Positions 2,488 to 20,204 of a DNA stretch of 20,404 bases are shown piece by piece. Position 1 is the stretch's first letter. Each line of letters begins with the position of its first letter. Position numbers and translations under genes: made by a program. The DNA lies in the IMG/VR virus record IMGVR_UViG_3300031898_000278, positions 1 through 20,404 of that record. The stretch is one strand, 5' to 3'. Source of the stretch: a virus. The notes below the pieces were generated by a model that did not search any database, had not been told where the DNA came from, and worked only from the letters and a program-made list of their open reading frames with translations.

Positions 2488-3729
2488 ATGTGGGAAGAGA
2501 CCGAAGAGTTCATTCGCAGCGGACATCGCAGCCCAGACGACTTCCAACCCGACAGTCTCAGAACAATTACAATCAGCGAAGAAGAAGGAATCAAGGCAGT
2601 AATTGGCAAGCCAAAAGGTCAAGACACGACCGAAGTGCAGTCCTACCTGTTTGCGAAGGATAAAGGCTGGACCATTGAGAAGGCTAAAGCGTGGTTTGAA
2701 CAGCACAGTCAAGCCAAAGAGCATCATGTCTGCTTTATAGCGCCTTTCTCTGTTACAAAAGAAAGCCTTGCGGAGAAGCCTTTGAAAACCAAAGGCATAG
2801 CCATGACAGCAGGCATGAGCCGAAACTTCAACATCTACACCGAAGACGAACTTCAGGCATTTGCGAAGAAACTCATCGGCTCACCCGTTTATCTTGAACA
2901 CGTTTCCGCAACGAATGCTATAGGCAAAGTCACCAAGACAGAGTGGAATCCAGAAAGTAAAGTCTTGTTCTACGAGGCTGAAATCCACGATGAAGAAACT
3001 GCTGAGAAGATACGTCGCGGCTTGATTCAACATGTTTCTGTAGCAGCAGACTATGAACGCCTCGATGTTGTAGACGGCAAAATCCCACATGGCTTGTATA
3101 ATGCTGAGTTGAGCCTAGTCGCTGTCCCAGGCATACCGGAAACTAATATTCAGGTTGCTGAGAAGTTGGACCCAAATTCAAAGGAATTTAGAGAATCGGT
3201 CAGAAGCATCGTGAAGGAGTTTTTGGGAGAGCAGGAAGACGGGCGCGCTAAACTTAGGCAAGCACAACTTGAGCGAGCACAGAAATACGGTATTGCACCA
3301 AAGGAAGGCGGAAACTTAACCAAGCCATCGGAATATGAAAGCATTCCAGAAGACCAATTTGCTGATCCGACAAACTATCGCTACCCTATCGACAAGGAGC
3401 ACGTGGACGCCGCTCTAAAGTATTTCAATCAACCCGACAATCGCCGAGACTATTCCCACGAAGAAGCCGTCAAGATCATGACGAAGATCATTCAGTCGGC
3501 TTTGACAAACGGCATCGAAGTCTCCTATCAAAGCGAAGACCCTGTCTACCGCGATTTACCAGAGGACTTGAAGGCGAAGATGAAAGGTTATACGCAAACA
3601 CGGGGCGGTTCTGTTGGCGAGTCTAAGAAACTGACTGGGCAGGGCATTGTTGTGCCACAAGCCCCTGAACCCGAGCCCGCGGATTTTGGCAAGGTCAAGT
3701 TGCGCGATGTTATGGAGGATTTTTCATAG
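2488..3729 (+). CDS. Prohead maturation protease with C-terminal scaffold-like region
   Basis: This enzyme trims scaffold and capsid proteins during head maturation. The 413-residue protein starts with a region ending in GWTIEKAKAWFEQH (residues 60-73), a motif often found before such proteases. The catalytic part follows: GIAMTAGMSRNFNIY (103-117), YLEH with His138, GKVTKTEWN, then GLIQHVSVAADY with Ser184, and LYNAELSLVAVPGIPETNI. This is the serine/histidine layout of S78/U35-like prohead proteases; the third catalytic residue is not assigned. Residues about 280-375 (FADPTNYRYPID, HVDAALKYFNQ) resemble the DUF6582 region commonly seen after these proteases. No separate scaffold gene is visible, so the C-terminus may serve. 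No Shine-Dalgarno site precedes the ATG; the transcript may be leaderless. The only other upstream candidate is a CTG two codons earlier. Confidence 0.88.
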   Translation: MWEETEEFIRSGHRSPDDFQPDSLRTITISEEEGIKAVIGKPKGQDTTEVQSYLFAKDKGWTIEKAKAWFEQHSQAKEHHVCFIAPFSVTKESLAEKPLKTKGIAMTAGMSRNFNIYTEDELQAFAKKLIGSPVYLEHVSATNAIGKVTKTEWNPESKVLFYEAEIHDEETAEKIRRGLIQHVSVAADYERLDVVDGKIPHGLYNAELSLVAVPGIPETNIQVAEKLDPNSKEFRESVRSIVKEFLGEQEDGRAKLRQAQLERAQKYGIAPKEGGNLTKPSEYESIPEDQFADPTNYRYPIDKEHVDAALKYFNQPDNRRDYSHEEAVKIMTKIIQSALTNGIEVSYQSEDPVYRDLPEDLKAKMKGYTQTRGGSVGESKKLTGQGIVVPQAPEPEPADFGKVKLRDVMEDFS

Positions 3730-3781: not shown

Positions 3782-4198
3782 ATGGTCGATAAGTGGCCTG
3801 ACGAAGAAGGTTTCATTAGCGAAGGCGAAATAGTTTCGCTCTTCAAGGCAACTGGAACCATAACAAAGGGTAAACTCGTCTACTTGACTGGCGATTTGGA
3901 GGTTCAGCAAGGAGTTCTAGACTGCGATCCTATCGGTGTAGCATTGAAAGACGGTGTTAGTGGCGACTATGTGCCCATATGCATTCATGGCGTCTGCAAG
4001 GTCCTAGCTGGTGCAGCAATAACTCGTGGGAAGGCTATCAAAAGCGACGCAAACGGCAAGGCAATTCCGTTATCTGATCAGGCGGTAAATGAAGGCGGAA
4101 CAGGAACATACACGATCTACTATGCTCGCAAGGCTGGAGTGGCATTACAGGCAGCAACGGCAGACGGCGACTACATTCTGGCTTTCGTTTGCAAGTAG
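3782..4198 (+). CDS. Capsid decoration/stabilisation protein (DUF2190-like)
   Basis: This 138-residue, mostly beta protein has the features of DUF2190-type head decoration proteins: EGEIVSLFKATGTITKGKLVYLTGD near the start, IGVALKDGVSGDYVPICIHGVCKVLAG in the middle, and a glycine-rich middle-to-end with AGVALQAATADGDYILAFVCK. These proteins bind the outside of HK97-fold shells at high copy. It lies between protease and capsid genes, which is the expected place. GGAGG at 3765-3769 is 12 nt upstream of this ATG. An out-of-frame ATG at 3775 has better spacing but reads only five codons (MENGR) before a TAA at 3790. The reading frame from 3782 is the only long one. Confidence 0.8.
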   Translation: MVDKWPDEEGFISEGEIVSLFKATGTITKGKLVYLTGDLEVQQGVLDCDPIGVALKDGVSGDYVPICIHGVCKVLAGAAITRGKAIKSDANGKAIPLSDQAVNEGGTGTYTIYYARKAGVALQAATADGDYILAFVCK

Positions 4199-4209
4199 GT
4201 GAAATGAAA

Positions 4210-5139
4210 ATGGCGAAAACAGATTTAGCCGTAAAACGACTTGAAGAGAAGCTCAAGACCCCGTTTAGTGGCAAACCTTTGACAATTCTACAGGCTGAGT
4301 TAAGGCAGAAAATGGCAGAAGCACTAAAGGACAAGCGTCTGGCTGAACTCTTGCTTTCTGATGTTAGCCAAGCAACTGCAAAGGTCTTAGATGTCGTTTG
4401 GGAAGCCGCCAAACCCAACCTTATAGGCAGAGAACTTGCGGTTGTAGTGGCTCAAGACCTGCCCAGCCTAAAGGTTCCAAGGGCTAAGCTAAGCAAAGCA
4501 TATGAAATTGCTGAAGGTGCTGAAATCCCGGTTGGCACAGAAGACTATGACAGTGTAACTTTGACACCTAAAAAGTATGGTGTCCGCCCATTAATCAGCA
4601 AAGAGATGATTGAAGACGCCGAATGGGACGTAATAGAGTATCAGTTAGCTGAAGCGGGCAGAGCAATGGCAGACTTGGAAACCGAAAAAATCATCTCTGA
4701 AATGATTTCAGATGCGGGCAACAGTGTGGCTGCCGGAACGGGTGGAACCTTAGCATATGCGGATGTTGTGAACATACTGAAGGAATGCCTTACAGATGAT
4801 TTCGCGCCAGACACTTTGGCAATTCATCCTAGCGAATTCGCAGACTTGCTGAAAGATTCGGCTATTCAGAAAGCTATGGATTGGGGCGGCCCAGCCGTTG
4901 CTCCTACAGGAAGAATCGCGAATCTGCTTGGCATGCGAGTGTTGGTTTCAACGAAAGTCACGAGCGGAACCGCATTAGTTATAGACAGCAAACACGCAGG
5001 TGTCCTATTCATTCGCAGAGATGTAACTGTGGAAGAATACGAGGATCCAGTGAAAGACCTAGCAGGAGTTGCCGTGACTGCACGCTGGATATACGACACA
5101 TTAAGGCCAAATGCAATTGGCAAAGTCACGAACTGCTAG
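4210..5139 (+). CDS. Major capsid protein, HK97 fold
   Basis: This 309-residue protein should form the icosahedral shell. Its N-terminal 60 residues are helical and charged, like a delta or scaffold segment. The E-loop and spine follow (DLPSLKVPRAKLSKAYEIAE, EIPVGTEDYDSVTLTPKKYG, PLISKEMIEDAEWD). The A-domain region has FAPDTLAIHPSEFADLL and GRIANLLGMRVLVSTKV, and the C-terminal strands include VLFIRRDVTVEEYEDP and AVTARWIYDTLRPNAIGKV, all familiar from HK97-fold capsid proteins. Two ATGs (4204, 4210) and a TTG (4189) are possible starts. The AGGTG at 4197-4201 overlaps the preceding stop codon and is eight bases before 4210, so 4210 is preferred. It is placed directly after the decoration gene. 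Confidence 0.9.
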   Translation: MAKTDLAVKRLEEKLKTPFSGKPLTILQAELRQKMAEALKDKRLAELLLSDVSQATAKVLDVVWEAAKPNLIGRELAVVVAQDLPSLKVPRAKLSKAYEIAEGAEIPVGTEDYDSVTLTPKKYGVRPLISKEMIEDAEWDVIEYQLAEAGRAMADLETEKIISEMISDAGNSVAAGTGGTLAYADVVNILKECLTDDFAPDTLAIHPSEFADLLKDSAIQKAMDWGGPAVAPTGRIANLLGMRVLVSTKVTSGTALVIDSKHAGVLFIRRDVTVEEYEDPVKDLAGVAVTARWIYDTLRPNAIGKVTNC

Positions 5140-5277: not shown

Positions 5278-5520
5278 ATGAAAGACAATGAGCGCGACAT
5301 TCTTCGCAGAACGATCCTTCAACTTATCAAAAAAGGGCACATGCACTACACGGATATTGAAAAAAAGACTGTCTCAACAGGTTTACGGTTTGCAACATCA
5401 AACACAGTAAAAAGACAATTCTACCATTATCTACTTACAAATCGCTTTGTGGAACGAATAAGCCGAGGCATTTACAGAATCACACAAAAAGGAGAGAAAC
5501 TTCTAGAAATTTTAAGTTAA
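5278..5520 (+). CDS. Winged-helix DNA-binding protein
   Basis: This 80-residue protein reads as a complete winged helix: helix 1 (RDILRRTILQLIKKG), HMHYTDIEKKTV as the second helix, TSNTVKRQFYHYLLTNRFVERI as the recognition helix, and the wing hairpin ISRGIYRITQKGEKLLEIL. The pattern 'G-Y-R-x-T-x-K-G' at the end is common in archaeal winged-helix proteins. It follows the coiled-coil gene and precedes the HD gene, which has its own promoter and an inverted repeat at 5557-5599, so this protein may control the HD gene. Target and role are inference. Confidence 0.7.
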   Translation: MKDNERDILRRTILQLIKKGHMHYTDIEKKTVSTGLRFATSNTVKRQFYHYLLTNRFVERISRGIYRITQKGEKLLEILS

Positions 5521-5556
5521 GAGAGCCTCAAGGTATTGTTTTATTCCTGCACGCAT

Positions 5557-5599
5557 GCAAAGGATTTGCGATTGATGTCACCACTTGCAATCGTTTTGC
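5557..5599 (+). repeat. Imperfect inverted repeat upstream of the HD gene
   Basis: GCAAA (5557-5561) and CGATTG (5569-5574) are repeated in reverse as CAATCG (5588-5593) and TTTGC (5595-5599). It lies between the winged-helix stop and the HD-gene promoter and could be an operator or an RNA hairpin ending the small upstream transcript. The rest of 5521-5656 holds no recognisable gene. Confidence 0.35.
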
Positions 5600-5659
5600 T
5601 ATCACCATCGAAACCATAATGTCATGAACAATCCGTGTATGTATGTATTTCCAAAAATG

Positions 5660-5667
5660 CTTTTAAG
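5660..5667 (+). promoter_or_regulatory. Candidate archaeal TATA box of the HD gene
   Basis: CTTTTAAG, preceded by an A-rich stretch, is centred about 37 bases before the ATG at 5701. A TATA box usually sits about 26 bases before transcription start, so the transcript would begin near 5690 with a leader of about ten bases. This supports starting the HD protein at 5701. Confidence 0.4.
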
Positions 5668-5700
5668 TCGAATTTCGTAAGTATCACTTGTGAAATTGCA

Positions 5701-7389
5701 ATGAATTTGGAAGATTTTTTGACCGATAATGACAAAAGAGATGCCTTGCAAAAAATCAAGCAACATTGTTCTGATATGTGGATTCAAGGTCTGTATCCCG
5801 CGCCTTGGAATGTCATTCATGGGATTCCGCACTCTCAAGCAGTGGCCACACTGCTTGGAAGGATATTAGAGGTCTATATGACTAAACCCTATAGGATCAA
5901 CCAAAGTGAAATACTAGTGCTCTTGGGTGCCGCTTGGCTACATGACATAGGGTATTTGCCCAAGGAAGATGAAGACAAAGAGACTTACGATTTTGACGAA
6001 GTCAAGAAGAACCATCCCTTGAGAGGCTACGAGTACATTATGAACCATCTTTCCGAATGTGGTGAAAAATGGGGTCCTCTAATTGCTTTATGTGTAAGAG
6101 GGCATAGAGAAGTTCCTCCAAAGGAAGGGGACTATGTTAATGTAGTGATGAAGTCCGACACTATAAGGTTACAGTTTCTGACAGCTTTGCTGAGGTTAGC
6201 TGATGAACTAGACATAGGCGAAGAGCGTGCCCCGAGACCGTTTTTTGCGCAGATTAAAGAATTTTATGGAAGTCTTCCAAACCACACAATCCTGCAGTGG
6301 ATTAGACACCACTACACCGAGGGGATTGATTTACAACATGCGGCTAAAGACGGCGCGTTCATCCACATAGGAATTCATACGTATATTCCCTCGGATGAGT
6401 ACGCGAAATATGTTGTAGAACCATGGATCGTAGATCCAGTCAAGACCGCAATTCTCGATACTTTCTATGCGCTATCTTCGGAGTACTTGATGCTAGATAC
6501 AAATGTGACCAGTAGATCCCAACTCGTGTCTAGCATGGAAATCATACCTTATAACGTATTCTCGGACATTCAGAAGCAGGTTCTAGACAGAGAAAGCTTG
6601 CAGAGTTTGGTGAGATACGATTTCAGACGTACATGCATGTTTGAGGGAGAAATCGGTCAAAAAAATCATACTTTCAAGTCTGACATCATAAAAACGAGGA
6701 ACCATCTTTCTTATGTATTGGTTAATAATTCAAACGACAAAAGATACCTCGCTGGGGATGGCTTGCTACTAGGATTGTCTACTGATTTTTTTGAGGCACC
6801 GTCAGACGAGAGAATTAGCAAAAAGAATATAGAAGAAAAAACTGGCACAACAGTATACGTGACTCGAAATGGAAAACGCAAGGATTTACGAATTCAGTAT
6901 ATTGAAGTGCAACATCTGTCAGAAGTTAAGGTGATGTCAGTATCTCAGATTTGTAGTACGTACCTGAAAAAATTCAAATCCTACGCTGACAGAATCTTCG
7001 GATTTTATGAGATTGCAGAAAGCAAAGGATTGGTGACTGTAGCGATAAGATATTTGTTCCTTGAACCAATACAACCCAAGGAAGAACTCCGCTTCGAATA
7101 CTCTTGGAACTCAACTTTTCTCCCTTGGGATGCAGTTACATTTACGTTGAGCCATCCTACGAAGGGAGTTACGGTTTCCTTTGACGGTTTTCCAGAAGAA
7201 TATAGCTTCAGGACTACAGTCTCCTTACTTCGGGAAGTTGGAACAAGACCGGGACAAGAGCGAAAACCAGAGTTTGTAGTTGAACTTGGAGAAAAGGCAA
7301 GATTCTTCGCTGATTCGGGTGTGCTTGCGCCTGGCACCCAAATCGTCGCTCAATGGAGAGATATACGCAGGGGCCTTCATCAACTTTGA
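5701..7389 (+). CDS. HD-domain protein with C-terminal beta domain, possible conflict effector
   Basis: From the ATG at 5701 the protein has 562 residues. An upstream ATG at 5635 would add 22 residues, but a TATA-like box lies between the two. The HD metal site is complete: His44 (GIPHSQ), His81-Asp82 (AWLHDIGY), His105 (NHPLRG), His135 (RGHREV) and Asp168 (LRLADELDIG). Five such residues suggest a two-metal phosphohydrolase acting on a nucleotide or nucleic acid; the substrate is unknown. Residues about 300-430 are mixed. Residues 450-562 form a strand-rich C-terminus (LRFEYSWNS, HPTKGVTVSF) that may sense a ligand. HD proteins with such added domains occur in prokaryotic defence and conflict loci. 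Here it sits alone between capsid and neck genes with its own promoter, which suggests cargo, for instance superinfection exclusion or nucleotide control. The role is inference. Confidence 0.65.
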   Translation: MNLEDFLTDNDKRDALQKIKQHCSDMWIQGLYPAPWNVIHGIPHSQAVATLLGRILEVYMTKPYRINQSEILVLLGAAWLHDIGYLPKEDEDKETYDFDEVKKNHPLRGYEYIMNHLSECGEKWGPLIALCVRGHREVPPKEGDYVNVVMKSDTIRLQFLTALLRLADELDIGEERAPRPFFAQIKEFYGSLPNHTILQWIRHHYTEGIDLQHAAKDGAFIHIGIHTYIPSDEYAKYVVEPWIVDPVKTAILDTFYALSSEYLMLDTNVTSRSQLVSSMEIIPYNVFSDIQKQVLDRESLQSLVRYDFRRTCMFEGEIGQKNHTFKSDIIKTRNHLSYVLVNNSNDKRYLAGDGLLLGLSTDFFEAPSDERISKKNIEEKTGTTVYVTRNGKRKDLRIQYIEVQHLSEVKVMSVSQICSTYLKKFKSYADRIFGFYEIAESKGLVTVAIRYLFLEPIQPKEELRFEYSWNSTFLPWDAVTFTLSHPTKGVTVSFDGFPEEYSFRTTVSLLREVGTRPGQERKPEFVVELGEKARFFADSGVLAPGTQIVAQWRDIRRGLHQL

Positions 7390-7770
7390 CACATGTAATA
7401 GAAGACTATTCCATAAGCTTATCTTAGAAAGCCTTTTATTTAATAATCACCGAAGAAGAAAGAAGGGAGCGTCTGTTATCATTGGATTCGTCGATAGAGT
7501 GAAGCGATCGGAGCTTTCATCAACTCCGTACCAGAATCGCGTTGGTTAATGTTCTACATAATTTTTAACCTACACGTTTCTCTGTTTCTTAACAACCTTT
7601 CCTCTCTCTCATTAGCATAGAGGCGAGAAATCACTGAACCAATAAATCTAATTGCACCCCACATCGTTACTTCTTATTACTTCTGATACTGTTCATCCAA
7701 CCAAATCCTTTTTGCCAAAATAGGTTAAATTTTGCTTCTTTCTCGTTTTCTTTTGGGGGCCAGAGTCTGT
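7390..7770. other. Gene-poor stretch after the HD gene
   Basis: I see no convincing gene here. It contains a bulged hairpin at 7504-7540, a T/C-rich tract around 7561-7612 that may end the HD transcript, and an AT-rich stretch before the gp6-like gene (GGTTAAATTTT near 7722) that could be its promoter. Open frames crossing it lack ribosome sites or recognisable content. Confidence 0.5.
7504..7540 (+). terminator. Bulged hairpin and following T/C tract
   Basis: GCGAT-CGGAG (7504-7513) pairs with CTCCG (7524-7528) and ATCGC (7536-7540), giving ten base pairs with a seven-base bulge on one side. About 20 bases later a long T/C-rich run begins. Together they could end or process the HD mRNA; the hairpin alone might also be a structured RNA element. 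Confidence 0.3.
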
Positions 7771-8133
7771 TTGGTAGCAGTCACTCCAGACCGTGTTCGT
7801 AACCGCGTTAATCTTTCAGCCTCGGATATCGCCGATTCCATTGTCACCCAATTTATTGAAGATGCCTGTGCTGAAGTTATGCTTGAAACCGGTCTCACCA
7901 TTGACTATAACAGTTGCACACAAGCCGAAGCGTCTTGCATAACCGATCTTGCAGCCCTCTACTGTCTCACCTATCTAACTGGTGGGTCCGCATCTGGCAC
8001 CAGCTTCTCTCTTGGAGATTTGAGCGTAAAAGAGGTTACGGGTGGAGTTGAAACTCCTTCCCCGGCGTTTTTGCAGCAACGTGTTCTCATACTGATCGAG
8101 CAACTGAGGAAGCCTTATCTCGGGAGGGTCTAA
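7771..8133 (+). CDS. Head-tail adaptor, gp6-like
   Basis: These proteins dock as a ring under the portal and start the neck. The first part (VTPDRVRNRVNLSASDIADSI, FIEDACAEVMLETG) and the later helices (ASCITDLAALYCLTYLTGG, FLQQRVLILIEQLRKPYLG) match the all-helical gp6/gp15-like adaptor fold, with a polar loop (SLGDLSVKEVTGG) between helices, as is typical. Length from the TTG at 7771 is 120 residues. A frame extension to a TTG at 7732 adds 13 residues that look unrelated, so 7771 is preferred; the upstream GGGGG at 7755-7759 is only a weak ribosome site. It is followed by the stopper fusion in the same frame after a TAA. Confidence 0.7.
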   Translation: MVAVTPDRVRNRVNLSASDIADSIVTQFIEDACAEVMLETGLTIDYNSCTQAEASCITDLAALYCLTYLTGGSASGTSFSLGDLSVKEVTGGVETPSPAFLQQRVLILIEQLRKPYLGRV

Positions 8134-8139
8134 ACCATC
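8122..8139 (+). promoter_or_regulatory. Strong ribosome site facing a non-AUG codon
   Basis: GGGAGGG at 8122-8128 is the best ribosome site near the stopper fusion gene, but it is 41 bases from the ATG at 8170. It is eight bases from an in-frame ATC at 8137. The codons from 8140 to 8169 (GALEDYYNFV) read like protein continuous with the N-terminus. Either a rare AUC start, a sequence error (ATG to ATC), or an unknown mode of initiation may apply. Confidence 0.4.
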
Positions 8140-8169
8140 GGAGCCTTAGAAGACTACTACAATTTTGTC

Positions 8170-9522
8170 ATGACCCATGCGCCCTATTTCTATTGGCTTC
8201 CAGAACAGAGCCAACATGACCCAACATGGGGTCGAGGGACTTTAGTTGCAGCCTTCGCCATTGATTTTCTTTACGAATGCTATAATGATTCACGGTTTGA
8301 GAGCGAGAAAACAAACATCTATAACAAAATCGTTGAGCTTGCTGATTTCATCCTGACCCAACAGTGTACAGATCCAGCCAAGAAGGCATATGGCGGGTTC
8401 AAAAGTGCAGAAGTGAGCAACTATTATTATTCTGTTGACGCCTGTCGAGCGATTCCCGGACTGCTGCATGCTTTTGCTTTAACGAATACTGCAGGATACC
8501 TTAATGCTGCTAAGCTAGCTGGCGGGACTTTCCTCAAGACCATGCAAGACAAACAGACTTACGGTGGATTTGCACGTACAGTGACAATCAATGATGATTG
8601 GCTTTTACAGATTGACATTGAATGTCTGTACGGTCTAATCGGTCTTAAGATGTTGTCTAACTATGATCCAGATAACAAGAGCCAATATGAATCGATGATG
8701 GCTGAGTTAGTGGAGTTTTTAAAGGAAGGCTTTGAGGGATATTGGCTTTATTACGATCCGGCAGACGATAAGTGGCATCGAACTGGACTAGGTGAAACAC
8801 AAGTTTACGATGACCCTTTTAGTTACGCCTTGCTTGGTCTCTACGATTACGAAGGCAGAAGCATAACAGTTGAGAAGGTTTACGAGTTCATCAATACAAT
8901 AGGTGCGACCGTTGAATATCCTGGTTACAATCCATATATCTGCTGGAGCGGCTACATCGATGTTGTCACACGAAAAGCAGCATGCGAATACTATGACGGT
9001 GTCACATCTGGAATTCTCTATAAAATCCGAAACGCTTTCGACAAACCTTCTCTAGCGTTGAGTAAACAAATCGTTGAGGACCGGGCGGAACAGTTCAAAT
9101 ATTGGGGCGTCAAATTCACCGATTTTAGTCCTATTGCTAATCAGCAGTCAACCGTAACGGTTTCATGGCTCGGTCACATGCTTCTAAATTATACGCCAGC
9201 TCTTACATCATTCACGAAGATTCTAAACCAATACGGCGAAAATCTTGACCTCTTAATGATCGTCCAAGCTGGAGAGCCGACGAGCTACTACGATCCCATT
9301 CCTATCAAGGGCGTGATTCGTAATGTGCGGCAAGATGAGATCATAATCGAGCCAGGATACATGATCACTGATTTCTTGATGGTTTACACGTTTCTTCCGG
9401 TGCGACATCATGACAAGATAAGGCGTCATGGCGTCGATTACGAGGTTGCGCAGGTTGACTTGTTCCGACTCCAAGGTGAGCCACTGTTTTTTCGGTCTGT
9501 TGGTAGGAGGCTTCTTGGCTAA
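8170..9522 (+). CDS. Head-closure (stopper) protein fused to an (alpha/alpha)-toroid, glycosidase-like domain
   Basis: The C-terminal 106 residues (about 345-450) read as a neck stopper of the SPP1 gp16 type: TKILNQYGENLDLL, then strands IPIKGVIRNVRQDEIIIEPGY, and HDKIRRHGVDYEVAQVDLF with a final FFRSVGRRLL. Position after the adaptor and before the tail terminator agrees. The first about 344 residues are unrelated to any stopper: repeated helical hairpins with aromatic-glycine turns (TWGRGTLVAAFAIDFLYE, KKAYGGFKSAEVSNYYYS, QTYGGFARTV, DDPFSYALLGLYDYEG, YNPYICWSGYIDV) resemble six-hairpin (alpha/alpha) toroids of glycoside hydrolases and related enzymes. Catalytic residues cannot be assigned. 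The ATG at 8170 is used here, but see the ribosome site at 8122. The stop overlaps the next start (TAATG). Confidence 0.7.
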   Translation: MTHAPYFYWLPEQSQHDPTWGRGTLVAAFAIDFLYECYNDSRFESEKTNIYNKIVELADFILTQQCTDPAKKAYGGFKSAEVSNYYYSVDACRAIPGLLHAFALTNTAGYLNAAKLAGGTFLKTMQDKQTYGGFARTVTINDDWLLQIDIECLYGLIGLKMLSNYDPDNKSQYESMMAELVEFLKEGFEGYWLYYDPADDKWHRTGLGETQVYDDPFSYALLGLYDYEGRSITVEKVYEFINTIGATVEYPGYNPYICWSGYIDVVTRKAACEYYDGVTSGILYKIRNAFDKPSLALSKQIVEDRAEQFKYWGVKFTDFSPIANQQSTVTVSWLGHMLLNYTPALTSFTKILNQYGENLDLLMIVQAGEPTSYYDPIPIKGVIRNVRQDEIIIEPGYMITDFLMVYTFLPVRHHDKIRRHGVDYEVAQVDLFRLQGEPLFFRSVGRRLLG

Positions 9523-10490
9523 TGCCAGTTGAGGACCCTGTTACAACCCTTACTCGTTTGATTAAGACTAAGATGTGGCTTGTCAAAGATGACGGATCAC
9601 TGGCTAACATTCATGTGGGAAAGGAATGGTACGACCGTGAACTCCTAAAGAATTACGAAGGGCAAGTCACAGTAGGCCTCACCCGAAGTGACGACAAAAA
9701 GCTCAGCATGACCGGGAAAGATCGTAGGCGTGAGGGCTTTCTTCAAGTCAATATTTGGGTTATCGACAGGTCTGGCATTGTCGGCAGGGATATGCGTGAG
9801 AAACTAAAAGAGGAGATCCTTCGCATAATCCGAGAAAATCGGACTAAGCCCAATGAAACTCTTTATAATTTTCTTGGTGTTGGTCCTCCAACTGGCACTC
9901 ACAAGGCTTACTATGGCAAGTCTGAGACTGAATTAGTGCCTGGCGCGGCAGGATGGACTGAACTCTCAGCTACTAACTATGAGAAGATTTGGCAAAGCGA
10001 TGACAATCGCTACAGTTATTCGCAATTCGAGAATGGCAAATACAGCATGATCTTGTTCCGTTTCAAAATCGGTTCCAAGAAGGATGTTGTCAGTAAAATT
10101 ATTTTGAGATTTGAAGGCTACGGCACAGCTCCCGGTGGCAACGGTGTCACTATCAAAATTTGGAATTTTACGGCTTCTGCTTGGCAAAACGCCCAGACCG
10201 GGACAGGCGGAGCGGATGAATGGATATCCATCACTATAACATCTAATTTGACCAACTATGTCGATTCGAATGGCTACATCTATCTGCTTGCCAGAACAAC
10301 CAACTCCAGCGATGGCTCCACGCCAGCCATAATTTACTCGGATTGTGCCGACTCTATCATAACGGTTTATGGAATCACATACTGCGACATCGTTTCATAT
10401 CAAGATCAAGACGAGGTGCGTGTTAAACCGTTCTTGTGGCGCACTGAGTTCGCGGTCAAGTCATGGTTGTTTGAAACAATACCATTCTAA
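9522..10490 (+). CDS. Tail terminator-like neck protein with inserted beta-sandwich domain
   Basis: Residues 1-120 (DPVTTLTRLIKTKMWLV, GQVTVGLTRSDDKK, REGFLQVNIWVIDRSG, MREKLKEEILRIIRENR) and the last 37 residues (CDIVSYQDQDEVRVKPFLWR ... FETIPF) fit a small tail-terminator/tail-completion fold that caps the tube at the head side. Residues about 122-285 (bases 9885-10376) are a self-contained strand-rich insert with no similarity in style to the core: IWQSDDNRYSYSQF, MILFRFKIGSKKDVVSKIIL, VTIKIWNFTASAWQNAQTG, YIYLLARTTNSS. This resembles the DNRLRE/carbohydrate-binding beta-sandwich type, as found on secreted and virion proteins. The start overlaps the stopper stop codon by one base. Confidence 0.65.
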   Translation: MPVEDPVTTLTRLIKTKMWLVKDDGSLANIHVGKEWYDRELLKNYEGQVTVGLTRSDDKKLSMTGKDRRREGFLQVNIWVIDRSGIVGRDMREKLKEEILRIIRENRTKPNETLYNFLGVGPPTGTHKAYYGKSETELVPGAAGWTELSATNYEKIWQSDDNRYSYSQFENGKYSMILFRFKIGSKKDVVSKIILRFEGYGTAPGGNGVTIKIWNFTASAWQNAQTGTGGADEWISITITSNLTNYVDSNGYIYLLARTTNSSDGSTPAIIYSDCADSIITVYGITYCDIVSYQDQDEVRVKPFLWRTEFAVKSWLFETIPF

Positions 10491-10511: not shown

Positions 10512-11351
10512 ATGAGTATATATGGTGCGCATGAAGCAAAATTCTACTACGTCGAGGAAACCAACTATGGGGAAACGCCGGCAAATCCGAACATGCTTGG
10601 AATTGGACCCGTTGACAATGTTGAACCCGCAATAGATCCTGGGCTCATCAGAGTTCGTGGCATTGGATCTGTGGATTTACAGGCTATCAAAAAGGGTTTG
10701 AGAGAAGTCGCTGTGAAGGTTGCATTTGCCATTCCAAGCGACGCACCCATCAGCTTTATTCAATGGGTGAAGGTGGAGTTAGACAAAAGCCTTAGCATCG
10801 AGGTTTTCTACGAAAAATCAAGCGGGATCATCTCGCTACTTCACAGGGGATGTAAGTTCAACCGCTTATCACTGGGATGTTCCGTTGAAGACGTCATAAA
10901 AGGAGAGGCTGAATTACTCGGTCAAAACTTGGTTGTGGGAACTGTGAAAATCGGCGCAACCTATGGCGATCATCCATATGCAGTATCTTTTTGGGAGAGT
11001 TACGTCAAGAAGGGCGCAGCGACGCTGGAGCGTGTGACTGATTGGAAATGGACGATCGAGAATAATCTGAAACGCGTGCCCGTCATTAGAACAACTAGCG
11101 GAAACATTCTCAAGTTCCTGCCTCATCGGCATCGCAATCTCTCAGGCGAGGTAACGTTTGAGTTTGAGAGCAAGGACGAATTTGATGACGTCATTAATGA
11201 TACCGAATTTACCCTAGAGTTTGGGCTAGGCGGAAGCAACAAGGCAGTATTCAGCAACTGCAAGTGGGACAAAGTAAGCACTCCGACACGAATCGAGGAT
11301 CTCGTTGCTTTGAAGGCACCGTTTGTTGCAAGAAGTGTAGCCATAAGCTGA
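10512..11351 (+). CDS. Major tail (tube) protein
   Basis: This 279-residue beta-rich protein is placed between the tail terminator and the tail chaperones, the standard location of the tube subunit. The opening (GAHEAKFYYVEETNYGETPANP) is typical of tail tube proteins, which begin with a strand followed by 'E-TTYGT-P'. It continues with many beta strands (REVAVKVAFAIP, SLSIEVFYEKSSG, GEAELLGQNLVVG, KWTIENNLKRVPVI, LSGEVTFEFESKDEFDDV, TEFTLEFGLGG), with the regular hydrophobic alternation of the tube fold. It should polymerise in rings around the tape measure. It has a GGAGG ribosome site 13 bases upstream. Confidence 0.8.
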   Translation: MSIYGAHEAKFYYVEETNYGETPANPNMLGIGPVDNVEPAIDPGLIRVRGIGSVDLQAIKKGLREVAVKVAFAIPSDAPISFIQWVKVELDKSLSIEVFYEKSSGIISLLHRGCKFNRLSLGCSVEDVIKGEAELLGQNLVVGTVKIGATYGDHPYAVSFWESYVKKGAATLERVTDWKWTIENNLKRVPVIRTTSGNILKFLPHRHRNLSGEVTFEFESKDEFDDVINDTEFTLEFGLGGSNKAVFSNCKWDKVSTPTRIEDLVALKAPFVARSVAIS

Positions 11352-12891: not shown

Positions 12892-13520
12892 GTTTCCACG
12901 AAATAGCCATAGCCATAACAGCTCAAGATCAGGCGACTCCAGTTTTCACGGAAGTTCAAGCCCAGGCTGAAAGAACAGCAGTGAGCATGCGAACCTTAAG
13001 CATGGCTGTCGCAACCCTTGGAACAGCAAGCTCAGCAATAATTGGCTTAGCCTCTGACCTTGGGATTGTCGATAAAGAGAGCGCCAAGTGGGCCCGCACC
13101 ATATTGTCAGTAATATCGGTTGTCGCTGTTCTCGTCCGCATGAAGTATTACTTAGCCGTCGTAACGGGTCAATCCACAGCCGCTTTTGTAACCAACACAG
13201 GAGTTCAGACCGCCAATGCCGGGGCAACTGTTGCAAACTCAGCTTCTAAGGCAGGATACATTGCTTCGACGGGGACCGCCACAGCTGTAACATGGGCTTT
13301 CAATGCCGCTCTTGCCGCCAAGATCGTTTTGTTGACTCTGGGTGTTGGCGCCGTTATCGTAGCCGCTGCTGCTATGGCATCATTGGCTATGCAGACACAA
13401 GCCGCAAGTGGAGCCCTACGAGACTACAATTCGGCATTAGCCGAAACGCCCCGCTATACTCGTAGTATTCGGCGCGCTGGAGAGGAAGAGGAACTTCGCA
13501 GGCGGGGGATAGAAGGATGA
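12888..13520 (+). CDS. Tape measure protein, very short
   Basis: Starts with TTG overlapping the previous stop by four bases. The opening (IAIAITAQDQATPVFTEVQAQAER) is the typical N-terminus of tape measure proteins, and the middle is Ala/Val/Gly/Thr-rich with two hydrophobic segments (about residues 70-92 and 142-166). Tape measures fill the tail tube, set its length and help open the cell membrane. At roughly 0.15 nm per residue, 210 residues would give a tail of about 30 nm, far shorter than is usual for tubes of this type. No frameshift is evident that would extend it; the next gene starts in another frame after an ATGA overlap. Part of the role may be in another protein. Confidence 0.65.
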   Translation: MSFHEIAIAITAQDQATPVFTEVQAQAERTAVSMRTLSMAVATLGTASSAIIGLASDLGIVDKESAKWARTILSVISVVAVLVRMKYYLAVVTGQSTAAFVTNTGVQTANAGATVANSASKAGYIASTGTATAVTWAFNAALAAKIVLLTLGVGAVIVAAAAMASLAMQTQAASGALRDYNSALAETPRYTRSIRRAGEEEELRRRGIEG

Positions 13521-16138
13521 GTGTCGAGTTACCCGTTGTGGCTGTTGTTTTCGGTTCTGTCACACCTCCTCAGGGTGATATCCTTGAGTTAAGGGTTCAT
13601 TTGGGTTGCACAAAGGAGGTCAGCAGCTTTGAATGTTTGCTTCAAAACTTCAACAAGAAGTATAGCTCGGGTGGCACCTATCCCATAAACGTTGGCGACG
13701 ACGGAAGCATAAGCATTGGAAGAGGAACAAACTGTCCTCTAATCCTTACGCTTCGAGTAGAAGAAATTGAACCAGAATCAACTCCAGTGGAAAATTATAT
13801 TCGTGTTAGCGGTCGTTGTTGGGGAGAGAAAATCTTCCGTAAAGTTGTGACAAAAACTTATGAGAATCAGAAGGGCGAGGCAATCGTCAAGGACCTATTA
13901 GATAATTTTGTTGGACTAAGCCATGTCCGAGATACCACAGAGCTTGTTGAAGATACAGACACGACCTACACGCTTCTGGAGTATGAGAATACACCAGTCT
14001 TTGATATTCTGAAGTACATCGCTGAAAGCGCCGACAAGGCTGGCGTGATCGGATACGACTTCCGCGTGGAACACGATGGCAAATTCGCTTTCTTCCCAAA
14101 GAACAGCAAGACTTCGCCGATAAACCTCTCAGAGCGTATTGAGGTTAGTCATTACTCTAAGGATATCCACCGCATTCGAAACAAGATTATGGTTTATGGA
14201 GCTGCGGAAAAGGCTAATCCGTCAAATAGAGACGCTTGGACGGAAACTTTGGACATTAACAATGATGCGACGAACGATTGGACAAGTGGAACAGGAACTG
14301 GAAGCGTATCCTTAGACAATGCTGAGAAAATCCTTGGGTCTTACAGCATTAAGCATACTACGAGCACACCTGACTACTATGGATGCGCTGTTCTCACTTT
14401 TCCATCTGGCATGGAAGTTGACGGCAACAAGTATCCAAGCCTCTCATTCCAAGTAAAAGAGGAGTCAGCCTTCAACGGAAACATAGGCTTAGAGCTTGAA
14501 GATTCTGCTGGCATGAAGGTTCGCAGAGAAATCGGAGTCTCCCCTAACAACAAATGGCACCTACAAGGACTTAACGTTGGCAAAAAACACAGTGACGAAT
14601 GGACCCATAGCATTTTCAATTCTCAGCCCTTCAATTGGGCAAGCATTAAGAAGATTCTTTGGTACTGCAATTTTTCAGGAACTGGAACTGGCAAGTTTTG
14701 GATTGACAATCTGTTTTTTAATCGGAAGCGATGGGAAGCCACGAGAGCGGACTCAGGGAGCCAAACCAATTATGGCGTTAGGGAACTCGTTGAAGTTGAT
14801 GAGGAACTCCACAGCGACAATGAGTGTGACCTTCGCGCAAAAGCCTTACTAGATCACCTAAGTGTACCAGCAGAATTTCTGACTGTACAAACCACATGCT
14901 TGGACTATGGCACGAATCGCCTTTTGCCAGGAGACAAGATCCATGTCACGTTGCCCAACGAGAACATTGACTCAGACTTCCGCATCATAAGCGTTGAGTA
15001 CCGGGTTATCGCAAGTGAGCAAACATTAGAGATCACCTTGGAACTTGGAAAGGAGAAGCCCCTACTTGCTGATTATCTGTACGGTTTAAGGGCTACGACA
15101 GTAACCGTTGAGAAACTCATGCGTACTAAAGCAGGCCTCACTGGGGTGGCTGGATCTGCAGGGGGCGGTGGTGGAGGAGGCGGTATGACCCAACATGGAA
15201 ACGAATGGCATGATCCAGACATGGCTCTGCAAAGCGACTTTGCTTCACACAAAGATAGGCACAAGTCTGGTGGCGCAGATGCTTTTGTTTCGGCGGATCA
15301 TCTTGATGGTATTGCAAGAGTTAAGGTTCGCAAAAATAGCGGTGCAAGTGATGTAGGAGCAAGAAGGCGACTTAACCTTATCGAAGGCACAAATGTAACT
15401 TTAACGGTTGCAGATGACCCAACAGACGAAGAAGTTGACGTAACAATCGCCTCATCTGGCGGCGGAAGCGGAACTGACGAGAAGGTTAAGATTTCAGCAC
15501 AAGACATAACAAACAACTATCTGGAGCCGAAACTAACGGCTGGACCAAACATAAACATCACTAAGCAAAATCCCGGAGGCAATGAAAATCTTCTGATTGA
15601 GGCATTAAAGCAACTAACGTTTTTAGCAACAGGTATGTATTATCGCTCAATCCTCACGGCAGCCGTGCCTAATACCGTCGGTTATGCAGGTCCTAACTGG
15701 CTTTATGCAACACTCTACCCAATCACCAGAAAAATGACCTTCAATGAAGCCGCAATCCAATTGTTTTCGGGTGAGGCTGGCAAGAAAGTGCGGCTTGGAA
15801 TTTATGATGACTTAAACGGTGCACCAAATAATTTGATTCAAGATTTTGGTGAAATAGCCATAGACACAGCGGGTTTAAAAACAATAGCGATTAGTCCGGC
15901 GTTACAGTTGAACCCAGGTATTTATTGGTTAGCATATGTAAGTGATTCAACGTTAGCACAGATTTATTCTGTTATTACCGGATTAAATTTGATAGGTTCT
16001 ACTACAACACTTAGATATTCAACTGGAAGTTATTACCGGAGTTATACATATGCAGCCTTACCTGATCCGTTCGGAACGCCCATGTTTTCTCAAGGGTATT
16101 TGTATGCTATCGGTCTTAAACTCCAGAGTGTGCCATAA
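13517..16138 (+). CDS. Tail hub (Tal/gp27-like) fused to fibre and receptor-binding tip
   Basis: At 873 residues it is the largest protein here. Residues 1-240 and about 411-540 make a tail-tip hub split in two (SFECLLQNFNKKY, NYIRVSGRCWGEKIFRKVV, PVFDILKYIAESADKAGVI; then LTVQTTCLDYGTNRLLPGDK, IISVEYRVIASEQTLEITLE). Between them (about 241-410) is an inserted beta-sandwich with DYYGCAVLTFPSGMEV, YPSLSFQVKEES and GKFWIDNLFFNRKRW, in the style of galactose/carbohydrate-binding modules. A run of eight glycines (549-556) then leads to a His-rich segment (QHGNEWHD, HKDRHKSGGADAF), probably a metal-binding fibre knot, two fibre repeats (LIEGTNVTLTVADDPTDEEV; LTAGPNINITKQNPGG) and a C-terminal domain from about 700 that is the likely receptor tip. 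It overlaps the tape measure by four bases. Confidence 0.75.
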   Translation: MSVELPVVAVVFGSVTPPQGDILELRVHLGCTKEVSSFECLLQNFNKKYSSGGTYPINVGDDGSISIGRGTNCPLILTLRVEEIEPESTPVENYIRVSGRCWGEKIFRKVVTKTYENQKGEAIVKDLLDNFVGLSHVRDTTELVEDTDTTYTLLEYENTPVFDILKYIAESADKAGVIGYDFRVEHDGKFAFFPKNSKTSPINLSERIEVSHYSKDIHRIRNKIMVYGAAEKANPSNRDAWTETLDINNDATNDWTSGTGTGSVSLDNAEKILGSYSIKHTTSTPDYYGCAVLTFPSGMEVDGNKYPSLSFQVKEESAFNGNIGLELEDSAGMKVRREIGVSPNNKWHLQGLNVGKKHSDEWTHSIFNSQPFNWASIKKILWYCNFSGTGTGKFWIDNLFFNRKRWEATRADSGSQTNYGVRELVEVDEELHSDNECDLRAKALLDHLSVPAEFLTVQTTCLDYGTNRLLPGDKIHVTLPNENIDSDFRIISVEYRVIASEQTLEITLELGKEKPLLADYLYGLRATTVTVEKLMRTKAGLTGVAGSAGGGGGGGGMTQHGNEWHDPDMALQSDFASHKDRHKSGGADAFVSADHLDGIARVKVRKNSGASDVGARRRLNLIEGTNVTLTVADDPTDEEVDVTIASSGGGSGTDEKVKISAQDITNNYLEPKLTAGPNINITKQNPGGNENLLIEALKQLTFLATGMYYRSILTAAVPNTVGYAGPNWLYATLYPITRKMTFNEAAIQLFSGEAGKKVRLGIYDDLNGAPNNLIQDFGEIAIDTAGLKTIAISPALQLNPGIYWLAYVSDSTLAQIYSVITGLNLIGSTTTLRYSTGSYYRSYTYAALPDPFGTPMFSQGYLYAIGLKLQSVP

Positions 16139-17360: not shown

Positions 17361-18756
17361 AATAATGCCCAAATGGTTCAGCCTTCAGCACAGTGAACGT
17401 GTAGTGAATGAGGCTGAAGTGGCGTGGGCTCAAAGCCTAAGCAAAGAGCCCGTAGAGTTTTTCCGTCAAGTAGTGGGATTCGAACCCACAGCCTACCAGA
17501 AAGAGTTTATCAAACTGTTTTTGGAAAATCAATTTCTGGCTGCTCGTTGGTGTCGTCAGTCAGGTAAATCTTGGATTGTTGCTGCATTGCTTCTGTGGTA
17601 CGCACTAACACATCCAGACAGCTACATTGCCGTAGTCGGTCCAAGTTGGAGACAAGCCAAACTAATCATCAGAAGGATAACTTACTTCCTTAGAAATCTG
17701 CCACCAGGCATGGTGTTCAAGCCTTTGCGGACAGTTATCCGCACAACAAATGGAAGCGTCATAGAAGCTTTTCCTTGCAATCCAGACACAATAAGGGGAC
17801 CCACATTAGACATCGTTTACTGCGACGAAATGAACTTCTTACCCAACGACATTGAAATGTATGATGCCATCCTTTTCACGCTTGCAACAACAAACGGAAA
17901 ATTCGTGTGCAGCAGCACACCTTGGAACAAGGACTCAATCTTCTACAAAATCTTCTTTCACGAGGGCTACGAGGACTTCGCTAAACATCATGTGACATGG
18001 CAGCAGGCCATCGAACCTTATGGACCACTGAAAAAGAAGATTCTAGACAAAATTCGCAGGCAGTTTGCCGAGGATCCTTGGCGCTGGCAAAGGGAGATGG
18101 AAGCCGAATGGGCAGAAGATGAAACAACGTGGCTTCCGCAATCTTTGATAACCCGCTGCATTGACGGGAACCTAGAGCTCTGGGATTTTGAGAGCCAGCA
18201 AAGAGGCAAGTTTTATGCGGGACTTGACTTGGGAAAACTTCGTGATTACAGCGTCCTTGTTGTCGTAGAAGAGGTTGAAGGCAAATATGTGCTTCGTCAC
18301 TGGAAGGTCTTCCCACATGGAACAAAATACGCGACAGTTATAGGCTACGTGAAAACGTTGTGCGACCGCTGGAAAGACTTTGAACGCATCAGAGTTGACA
18401 TCACGGGTGTTGGCGAATACGTAGTCGAGGACATGCAAAACGCAGGCATTGACGCTGAAACCGAAGGAGTAACCTTCACACTGCCACGGAAGCAGGAAAT
18501 GGCAAGCCTGCTCAAACAACGAATGTTAGACGGAGTCTACCGCTTTCCATTCGTTCAAATGAGGCTTTCTCCAACCGTTCTACTGTCTTACGTAGCAGAG
18601 TTAAACGTGGAAAGGTTCGAGTTGCGCAAGGATGGCAGCATAGCACTGTCGCATCCACAAGGACAGCATGACGACACATTTTGGGCAACCGCGTTAGCCC
18701 TCTATTGCTCGGTTAAGATGACTCCTGAACCATACTTGTCGGTGGTTCCAAGATGA
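17347..18756 (+). CDS. terL: Terminase large subunit
   Basis: This is the ATP-driven motor and nuclease that cuts and packs DNA through the portal. From ATG 17347 it has 469 residues. The ATPase part has a Q-motif-like region (FEPTAYQKEFIKLFLE), Walker A at residues 70-75 (CRQSGKSW), and Walker B with the catalytic acid in LDIVYCDEMNFL, then the coupling motif (CSSTPWNKDS). The RNase H-like nuclease part has the three acidic motifs: AGLDLGKLRDYSVL, RIRVDITGVG, and QGQHDDTFWATALALYC. Length is typical. An alternative start at 17365 would avoid the overlap with the small subunit. It overlaps the next gene by four bases (ATGA). Confidence 0.93.
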   Translation: MRPNEIMPKWFSLQHSERVVNEAEVAWAQSLSKEPVEFFRQVVGFEPTAYQKEFIKLFLENQFLAARWCRQSGKSWIVAALLLWYALTHPDSYIAVVGPSWRQAKLIIRRITYFLRNLPPGMVFKPLRTVIRTTNGSVIEAFPCNPDTIRGPTLDIVYCDEMNFLPNDIEMYDAILFTLATTNGKFVCSSTPWNKDSIFYKIFFHEGYEDFAKHHVTWQQAIEPYGPLKKKILDKIRRQFAEDPWRWQREMEAEWAEDETTWLPQSLITRCIDGNLELWDFESQQRGKFYAGLDLGKLRDYSVLVVVEEVEGKYVLRHWKVFPHGTKYATVIGYVKTLCDRWKDFERIRVDITGVGEYVVEDMQNAGIDAETEGVTFTLPRKQEMASLLKQRMLDGVYRFPFVQMRLSPTVLLSYVAELNVERFELRKDGSIALSHPQGQHDDTFWATALALYCSVKMTPEPYLSVVPR

Positions 18757-20204
18757 CAAGGCGCCAAGAGTTTTTCCACATAACGAAATACGCCCGCAGA
18801 TACGACAAGCGAGAAGGCAAATTCATAATTGACATAGCCTATGAAACAGCTGCTCCTGACCCGACGGATCGTGTGGTGGCTGTTGCCGAAGGCTTCGGGT
18901 TGGGACTTGACCAATGGGAAAAATTTGTTGTTTACGATAATGTGGAGTTGAAAATAGGACCAACGGACATCGTGTATATCACAGGCGACTCTGGGTCTGG
19001 CAAGTCTGTTCTGCTTAAGGTTCTTGAAAAAGACATCAAACGAGATTTAGGGTTAAGCTGCATCAACATTGCAGATATTTTACCGGACTTCGGTAAACCT
19101 CTCATCGAGACTGTTGGCAAAACCCTTGAGGAAGGCTTAGAGCTTCTCAGTAAAGTCGGCTTAAGCGACGCATTTCTCTTTTTGCGCTCCTATGAGCAGT
19201 TAAGCGATGGACAAAAATACCGATACCGTATAGCAAAAATGATTGAAAGCAAGGCTCAGTTTTGGGTTATGGACGAATTCTGTGCAACATTAGACAGAGA
19301 CACAGCTAAAATTGTAGCCTACAATCTGCAGAAGCTTGCAAGACAAGAGGGAAAGGCAGTTCTGGCAACCACAACACACACCGACCTCTTTGAAGATTTG
19401 AAGCCTTCAGTTCACGTTCACAAGCGATTCGGGAAAGAAATTGAAGTGCGCTACTATCCAAATGAGCCACCCAAGGAAAGCAGCCTAACAAAAGAAATTC
19501 GCATAGAAGAAGGCACAAGATCAGACTATGCACTACTGGCGAGTTTTCATTACCGTAGTCACCAAATTGGAATTGTGCGCAAGATTTTTCGTGCAGTTCG
19601 GGGCGATGAGGTTGCTGGCGTCATAGTTTACTGTTATCCAGGAATGACCGTTGCTGGACGCCTCAAGGTTCTGCCAAAGATGAGCGTGAAAGACTTGAAC
19701 CAGAAGCTAAGTGTCATTATGCGGGTCGTTGTTCACCCCAAATATCGCACTATAGGTTTGGGTCAACGACTTGTAAGAGAAACCTTGCCTCTTGTGGACA
19801 CGCCTTATGTTGAAACAATCGCAGTTATGGCCAAATATAATCCGTTTTTCCAGCGTGCAGGAATGCAGAAGATCATGGAGCAGTCTCCGCCTAAGCATGC
19901 TTTAGCCATTCGAGAAGTGCTTTCAGATCTGGGCTTCAACATAGTCTTGTTAGGCAGCCAAAAATACGTCCTTAATAAACTCCGTAGCCTATCAGATGAG
20001 CAAGTCTTGGATATCCGTTATGCTTTTATGAAGAACGTGCATGTGCGCTTCTTGAAAGAGTTTTTCTACCATGAACCATATGGAAAACGGGAATTATACA
20101 GGCAGAGAGTAGAGACTGCAACGTTAGAGAAACTTGCGAAACTTATCCATGTCACTGCCTTGCTACTGCAAACAAAAGTTTACTTGTTCTGGAAAAGAAA
20201 ATAA
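18753..20204 (+). CDS. ABC-type ATPase fused to GNAT acetyltransferase (COG2401-like)
   Basis: The N-terminal half is a soluble ABC ATPase: Walker A GDSGSGKS at 78-85, signature LSDGQ at 150-154, Walker B VMDE at 172-175 with CATLD after it, and the switch His at 209 (TTTHTDL). There are no membrane segments, so it is not a transporter. The C-terminal half has the GNAT core: MRVVVHPKYRTIGLGQRLVRE at about 322-343 with the R-x-x-G-x-G acetyl-CoA loop, and KYNPFFQRAGMQK as the last strand region. This pairing is the COG2401 family found in archaea and in viruses. The start overlaps the terminase stop (ATGA), so it is translated with the packaging motor. It may serve packaging, DNA processing or host-protein acetylation; the role is unknown. 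Confidence 0.85.
   Translation: MTRRQEFFHITKYARRYDKREGKFIIDIAYETAAPDPTDRVVAVAEGFGLGLDQWEKFVVYDNVELKIGPTDIVYITGDSGSGKSVLLKVLEKDIKRDLGLSCINIADILPDFGKPLIETVGKTLEEGLELLSKVGLSDAFLFLRSYEQLSDGQKYRYRIAKMIESKAQFWVMDEFCATLDRDTAKIVAYNLQKLARQEGKAVLATTTHTDLFEDLKPSVHVHKRFGKEIEVRYYPNEPPKESSLTKEIRIEEGTRSDYALLASFHYRSHQIGIVRKIFRAVRGDEVAGVIVYCYPGMTVAGRLKVLPKMSVKDLNQKLSVIMRVVVHPKYRTIGLGQRLVRETLPLVDTPYVETIAVMAKYNPFFQRAGMQKIMEQSPPKHALAIREVLSDLGFNIVLLGSQKYVLNKLRSLSDEQVLDIRYAFMKNVHVRFLKEFFYHEPYGKRELYRQRVETATLEKLAKLIHVTALLLQTKVYLFWKRK

Follow-up and report, generated by a model that had tools for sequence, protein, structure and literature searches.

Stoppers, the head-closure proteins of tailed-virus necks, are among the most size-constrained proteins of the virion. 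In SPP1, six copies of gp16 assemble and close the channel after DNA packaging (PMC9701221). Glycan-directed modules have been described at other positions of the particle: in 936 lactococcal phages, the CBMs of the neck passage structure are glycan-binding modules located at the neck (PMC6669499), and in the archaeal tailed virus HFTV1 the turret head protein exposes a predicted glycan-modifying domain on the virion surface (PMC12494034). Head-tailed viruses of Bathyarchaeia, Fuxiviridae and Kunpengviridae, have been described by Duan et al. 2024 (PMC10848311), and tailed proviruses of Bathyarchaeia by a 2024 survey (PMC11705971); passages of the main text of both papers make no mention of a stopper fusion, and in the open-access PMC literature no fusion between a glycosidase and a stopper, or any other neck protein, was found.

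The protein described here shares with the neck stoppers SPP1 gp16, lambda gpFII and that of Pam3 (Hc1) a C-terminal β-barrel of ~100 residues, the gene slot between adaptor and tail completion, and a link to phrog_939; unlike these stoppers, which have ~110 residues and no enzyme-like domain, it carries an N-terminal toroid of ~350 aa. As in the neck passage structures of the lactococcal phages 936 and TP901-1, a glycan-directed module, here a predicted one, would be placed at the neck, but in those phages a separate trimeric fibre protein bears the CBMs, whereas here the stopper itself bears the domain. The HFTV1 turret head protein is comparable in that it decorates the virion and combines a predicted glycan-modifying domain with a binding module directed against the archaeal surface; in HFTV1, however, the decorations are capsid turrets with a polysaccharide-deacetylase fold, and the proteins are unrelated to the toroid-stopper.

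The window, that is, the whole stretch of DNA analysed, is an IMG/VR virus record of 20,404 bases with a tailed-virus structural module, in which terminase, portal, HK97 capsid protein, adaptor, fusion protein, tail completion, tail tube and tail protein genes are present (Table 1). The open frame at 8170–9522 on the plus strand, from which the initial annotation started, is uninterrupted and encodes 450 aa, and the two-part layout proposed for it is reproduced by the AlphaFold model, with helices up to ~residue 355 followed by a β-barrel in the last ~95 residues; the chain of 450–461 aa contrasts with the ~110 residues of a single-domain stopper. The true start is probably the ATC at 8137 rather than the ATG at 8170, because the peptide encoded by the 11 codons between them is conserved in relatives, a Shine-Dalgarno-like motif (GGGAGG) lies just upstream of 8137 in the window (8124–8139) and in close relatives, and the ATC, common to the window and three close relatives, is replaced by ATG or TTG at the orthologous position in other relatives, L018 having an ATG one codon before it. 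Residue numbers of the AlphaFold model are counted from 8137 (+11 relative to the ATG at 8170).

Table 1. Window coordinates of the toroid-stopper gene, its two domains and the neighbouring structural genes.
Feature	Coordinates	Strand	Evidence
HK97-fold major capsid protein (MCP)	4189..5139	+	75-77% identical to the MCP of the sister provirus with toroid-less stopper
Head-tail adaptor	7762..8133	+	48-59% identical to the adaptor of free-stopper sisters; weak phrog_302 (virion structural); lies between MCP and stopper
Full toroid-stopper fusion gene	8137..9522	+	probable ATC start at 8137; first ATG at 8170
Predicted N-terminal (alpha/alpha)6 toroid, glycoside-hydrolase/epimerase-like	8170..9202	+	model, Foldseek, HMM matches in homologues
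Predicted C-terminal stopper (head-closure) beta-barrel	9208..9519	+	Foldseek, HMM, hhalign
Tail-completion/terminator protein with PF14741 extension	9522..10490	+	PF14741 (GH114_assoc) E 8.2e-06, residues 158-266
Tail tube protein	10512..11351	+	PF18906 E 4.9e-16; phrog_290 E 9e-20

The portal gene (890–2116) is encoded on the strand opposite to the other structural genes of the window and is co-directional in L182. The variable cargo slot between capsid and adaptor contains a winged-helix-like plus HD-CE protein in the window (5278–7389), and genes that by eye were named sugar-nucleotide epimerase-like and glycosyltransferase-like in L172 (5081–7238). The large tail protein (13517–16138) shows two apparent inserts, at ~residues 250–405 and 734–847, the latter matching phrog_25864, and these suggest further surface decorations.

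The toroid-like fold suspected for the N-terminal part is supported by high-confidence structure prediction and by Foldseek. The AlphaFold2 model, derived from 53 natural homologues (pLDDT 89.5, pTM 0.90; a single-sequence run with pLDDT 35.6 was discarded), contains the six inner/outer helix pairs of an (α/α)6 toroid, with helices starting at residues 35, 52, 99, 119, 161, 178, 225, 243, 289, 303, 339 and 358. In the PDB, the toroid matched GH126 (E 4e-07), GH76, AGE-type epimerases, GH88 and GH8, with a Foldseek probability of 1.00. The predicted likeness to GH126 (CPF_2247), GH76, AGE/glucose-2-epimerase, GH88 and GH8 extends from the fold to the aromatic- and carboxylate-rich loops before the inner helices, although sequence identity to these enzymes is ~10–13% and the domain is here fused to a virion structural protein.

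At the sequence level, the best match is the C-terminal domain of D-glucuronyl C5-epimerase (PF06662, C5-epim_C), detected in 48 of the 53 homologues (best E 1.2e-05), but just ~95–120 residues align and the N-terminal epimerase domains are absent here; PF07470 (GH88) is matched by 11 of the 53 (best E 0.00039). The window protein itself scores 17.8 bits against PF06662, under the Pfam gathering cut-off of 23.3, and no specific glycan family exceeds the Pfam threshold with it. The NCBIfam search gave no match for the fusion protein, and PDB sequence searches gave E values of 0.026 or worse, the best solved-structure match being the local alignment of the family to 6hzz/6i01 (E 0.026–0.028). 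A catalytic pair could not be mapped onto any single GH family and no family-specific catalytic motif was assigned; the invariant D225–D226 precedes the fourth inner helix, and no superposition on the Asp-Asp pair of GH76 was obtained. AGE / cellobiose-2-epimerase activity requires two catalytic histidines, and membership in this group was rejected because H214 is the only strongly conserved His on the loops of the sugar-binding face.

For the C-terminus (β-barrel at residues 368–458 of the model), the initial assignment as a head-closure domain is in agreement with several predictions. Foldseek placed it closest to 8hdr_A, from the neck of cyanophage Pam3 (E 7.9e-05, TMt 0.75), and against viral predictions it returned mostly short proteins of stopper size, several of them named SPP1-type head-tail adaptor or head closure; 17 of the 53 homologues match the phrog_939 head protein (best E 6.8e-08), and hhalign related the fused stopper domain to the free stopper of the sister provirus L172 at 99.4%. 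The gene position is likewise that of a stopper, after the adaptor and before tail completion and tail tube, and the same order is found in proviruses.

The toroid is under strong purifying selection, with dN/dS values of 0.03–0.05 against close relatives. Conservation is higher in the loops before the inner helices, whose boundaries were drawn by hand on the predicted secondary structure, than in the outer helices (p = 0.002). Across all 53 sequences, four carboxylates (E92, D225, D226 and D287) and the aromatics Y97, W213, W270, Y285, Y286 and W323 show no variation, R215 also being among the invariant residues, and the conserved carboxylates and aromatics sit on the loops that form the sugar-binding face in toroid enzymes. 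The invariant residues are those that a working carbohydrate site would keep.

A second feature of the neck concerns the tail-completion protein encoded immediately downstream, the C-terminal ~170 aa of which correspond to a CBM-like GH114_assoc (PF14741) β-sandwich extension. In toroid-less sister viruses the orthologue has 153 aa and the extension is absent; it was matched in nearly all fused loci tested and in 0 of 5 toroid-less loci, counts that are not independent, since many of the loci are duplicates from one contig retrieved two times. The extension co-occurs with the toroid, a combination that would set a CBM-like ring beside the enzyme-like one at the neck.

On balance, we favour by a little the interpretation that the protein is the head-closure subunit of a Bathyarchaeia tailed virus onto which a toroid has been grafted, predicted to act as a neck-borne glycan-active collar; the predicted glycan-modifying decorations of HFTV1 and the neck glycan-binding modules of the 936 phages argue for this interpretation. 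The stopper domains would assemble under the adaptor ring after DNA packaging and close the channel, as in SPP1-type biology, and by analogy with SPP1 gp16 (PMC9701221) six copies are a better guess than twelve, both having been considered in the initial annotation. Each subunit would hang a toroid of ~350 residues outward, giving rise to a collar at the head–tail joint, adjoined by the ring of tail-completion subunits with their CBM-like β-sandwich. The most likely task of such a collar would be to attach to glycans of the host surface (S-layer or N-glycan matrix) and cleave or modify them during approach to the envelope or its penetration, and an enzymatic role is predicted to be more likely than a lectin or structural one. 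It is possible, and we propose it tentatively, that the DNA-gate protein bears an active glycan-degrading collar of six toroids beside a CBM-bearing tail-completion ring, and that the toroid represents a new glycosidase or lyase family.

The toroid may, on the other hand, be a catalytically dead lectin, the collar then serving as a multivalent glycan binder by which the virion is held to its host. Neck-located binding modules have a precedent in lactococcal phages (PMC6669499), the adjacent tail-completion protein bears a CBM-like domain, and the invariant aromatics fit sugar stacking; nevertheless, the complete retention of E92, D225, D226 and D287 would exceed what binding usually demands, and we consider a lectin unlikely, though worth serious attention.

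Toroid-less sister viruses bear directly on the origin of the fusion. In the provirus L172 (genome G072), with the 75–77% identical capsid protein, the gene order is the same and the stopper is a free protein of ~111 aa (8165–8503), and a search of genome G072 for the toroid gave no match; four further viral contigs carry the same free stopper, two with a 73% identical capsid protein and two with a different one. The stand-alone stopper of these sisters, without any toroid gene beside such similar capsid proteins, indicates that the toroid is a separable graft, and since they manage with the bare stopper, not all viruses of the group can depend on what the toroid does. A tree of the stopper domain, although uncertain in some long branches, requires just one switch between the fused and the free state, as expected if the toroid was gained or lost once; L177 is fused, but in its stopper domain it is nearer to the free stoppers, and the extension is missing from its tail-completion protein. 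No donor gene was identified, because the likeness of the cellular Bathyarchaeia toroid relatives L174 and L175 (E about 1e-5) is at the superfamily level only.

A stopper-like domain was also observed in a different context in one genome only (G060), where a cellular topoisomerase VI B gene (L173, 7327–9411, plus strand; PF09239 E 4.9e-61) ends in such a domain (phrog_8797 Hc1 E 0.01; a stretch of 71 aa shares 45% identity with the free L172 stopper) and is followed by an ORF of 368 aa, probably topoisomerase VI A.

The toroid-less sisters weigh against the view that the toroid is a structural brace of the portal vertex and tail joint, devoid of glycan function and conserved as a part of the particle. 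Column entropy across the family is lower in the toroid than in the stopper domain (p = 0.0005) and the fusion is almost never broken, both in line with a brace, but viruses with 73–77% identical MCPs are entirely without a toroid and conservation of the loops before the inner helices is above that of the outer helices, so that this explanation appears quite improbable.

The fusion was found in 129 distinct intact sequences with 46–92% identity, from IMG/VR contigs and Bathyarchaeia proviruses. The first scan recovered 13 viral contigs, all essentially full-length, the alignment scan 132 relatives (80 retained), and the genome scan 14 contigs with matches, all of Candidatus Bathyarchaeota; the proviruses carrying the fusion sit on long chromosomal Bathyarchaeia contigs. 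A scan with a stopper-only query, blind to the toroid, returned fused proteins except for two frame-broken copies (L122 and L128), and among 257 Bathyarchaeia genomes the stopper was present in 36 and the toroid in 43, nearly always in one frame; neither search revealed a virus with the two parts as separate intact genes. Strong matches in a 398-genome sample of the phylum were limited to genomes already found within the class, with one weak toroid-like match beyond these (G552), and tblastn against the phage GenBank collection gave no relative (best E 7). These Bathyarchaeia tailed viruses have retained the fusion almost without exception, and its origin is ancient.

Some copies depart from the common form. 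The assembly G001 (Candidatus Bathyarchaeota A05DMB-2) holds six separate toroid-stopper copies, probably several proviruses. Nine loci (L113, L116, L119, L140, L144, L155, L160, L167 and L170) have frames of ~540–560 aa with an insert of ~60–80 aa in the N-terminal region (GQKNVTVADGTKF...), which by eye resembles segments of the L172 and L182 minor tail proteins and suggests a mobile virion domain. In the Bathyarchaeia contig L099 (1692–3578), the stopper is joined directly to a GNAT-like gene, homologous to window 18753–20204, by deletion or misassembly.

Proteolytic processing, by which the toroid would be released as a free enzyme and the stopper alone would enter the virion, is very improbable: capsid-assembly proteases exist in such viruses and a candidate may be encoded upstream of the MCP (2488–3729), but the segment between the domains is short and mostly helical in the model, and the two parts were never found encoded separately and intact. 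An assembly or annotation artefact deserves practically no credence, since the odd isolated copies (L099, running into the GNAT gene, and the frame-broken L122 and L128) stand against 129 distinct intact fusions from many independent metagenomes and genomes, which exclude chance and assembly error; with more than 100 viruses sharing it, the fusion reported in the initial annotation is genuine, and the artefact, separate-genes and pseudogene readings are ruled out by the recurrence scans and the selection analysis.

Returning to the glycan-active collar, the age and persistence of the fusion make it probable that the neck of Bathyarchaeia tailed viruses bears a collar that cuts or binds glycans. 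That a stopper is fused so stably and widely to an enzyme-like domain suggests that necks can serve as enzymatic or adhesive organs, with the toroid as the possible basis of a new carbohydrate-active family. The toroid-less sisters with closely related capsids provide a natural comparison, and the fusion itself offers a handle on how viruses pass the surface of Bathyarchaeia, a class of abundant and little-cultured sediment archaea. If true, a glycan-degrading collar built into the DNA-gate protein would be a virion-entry device not described before.
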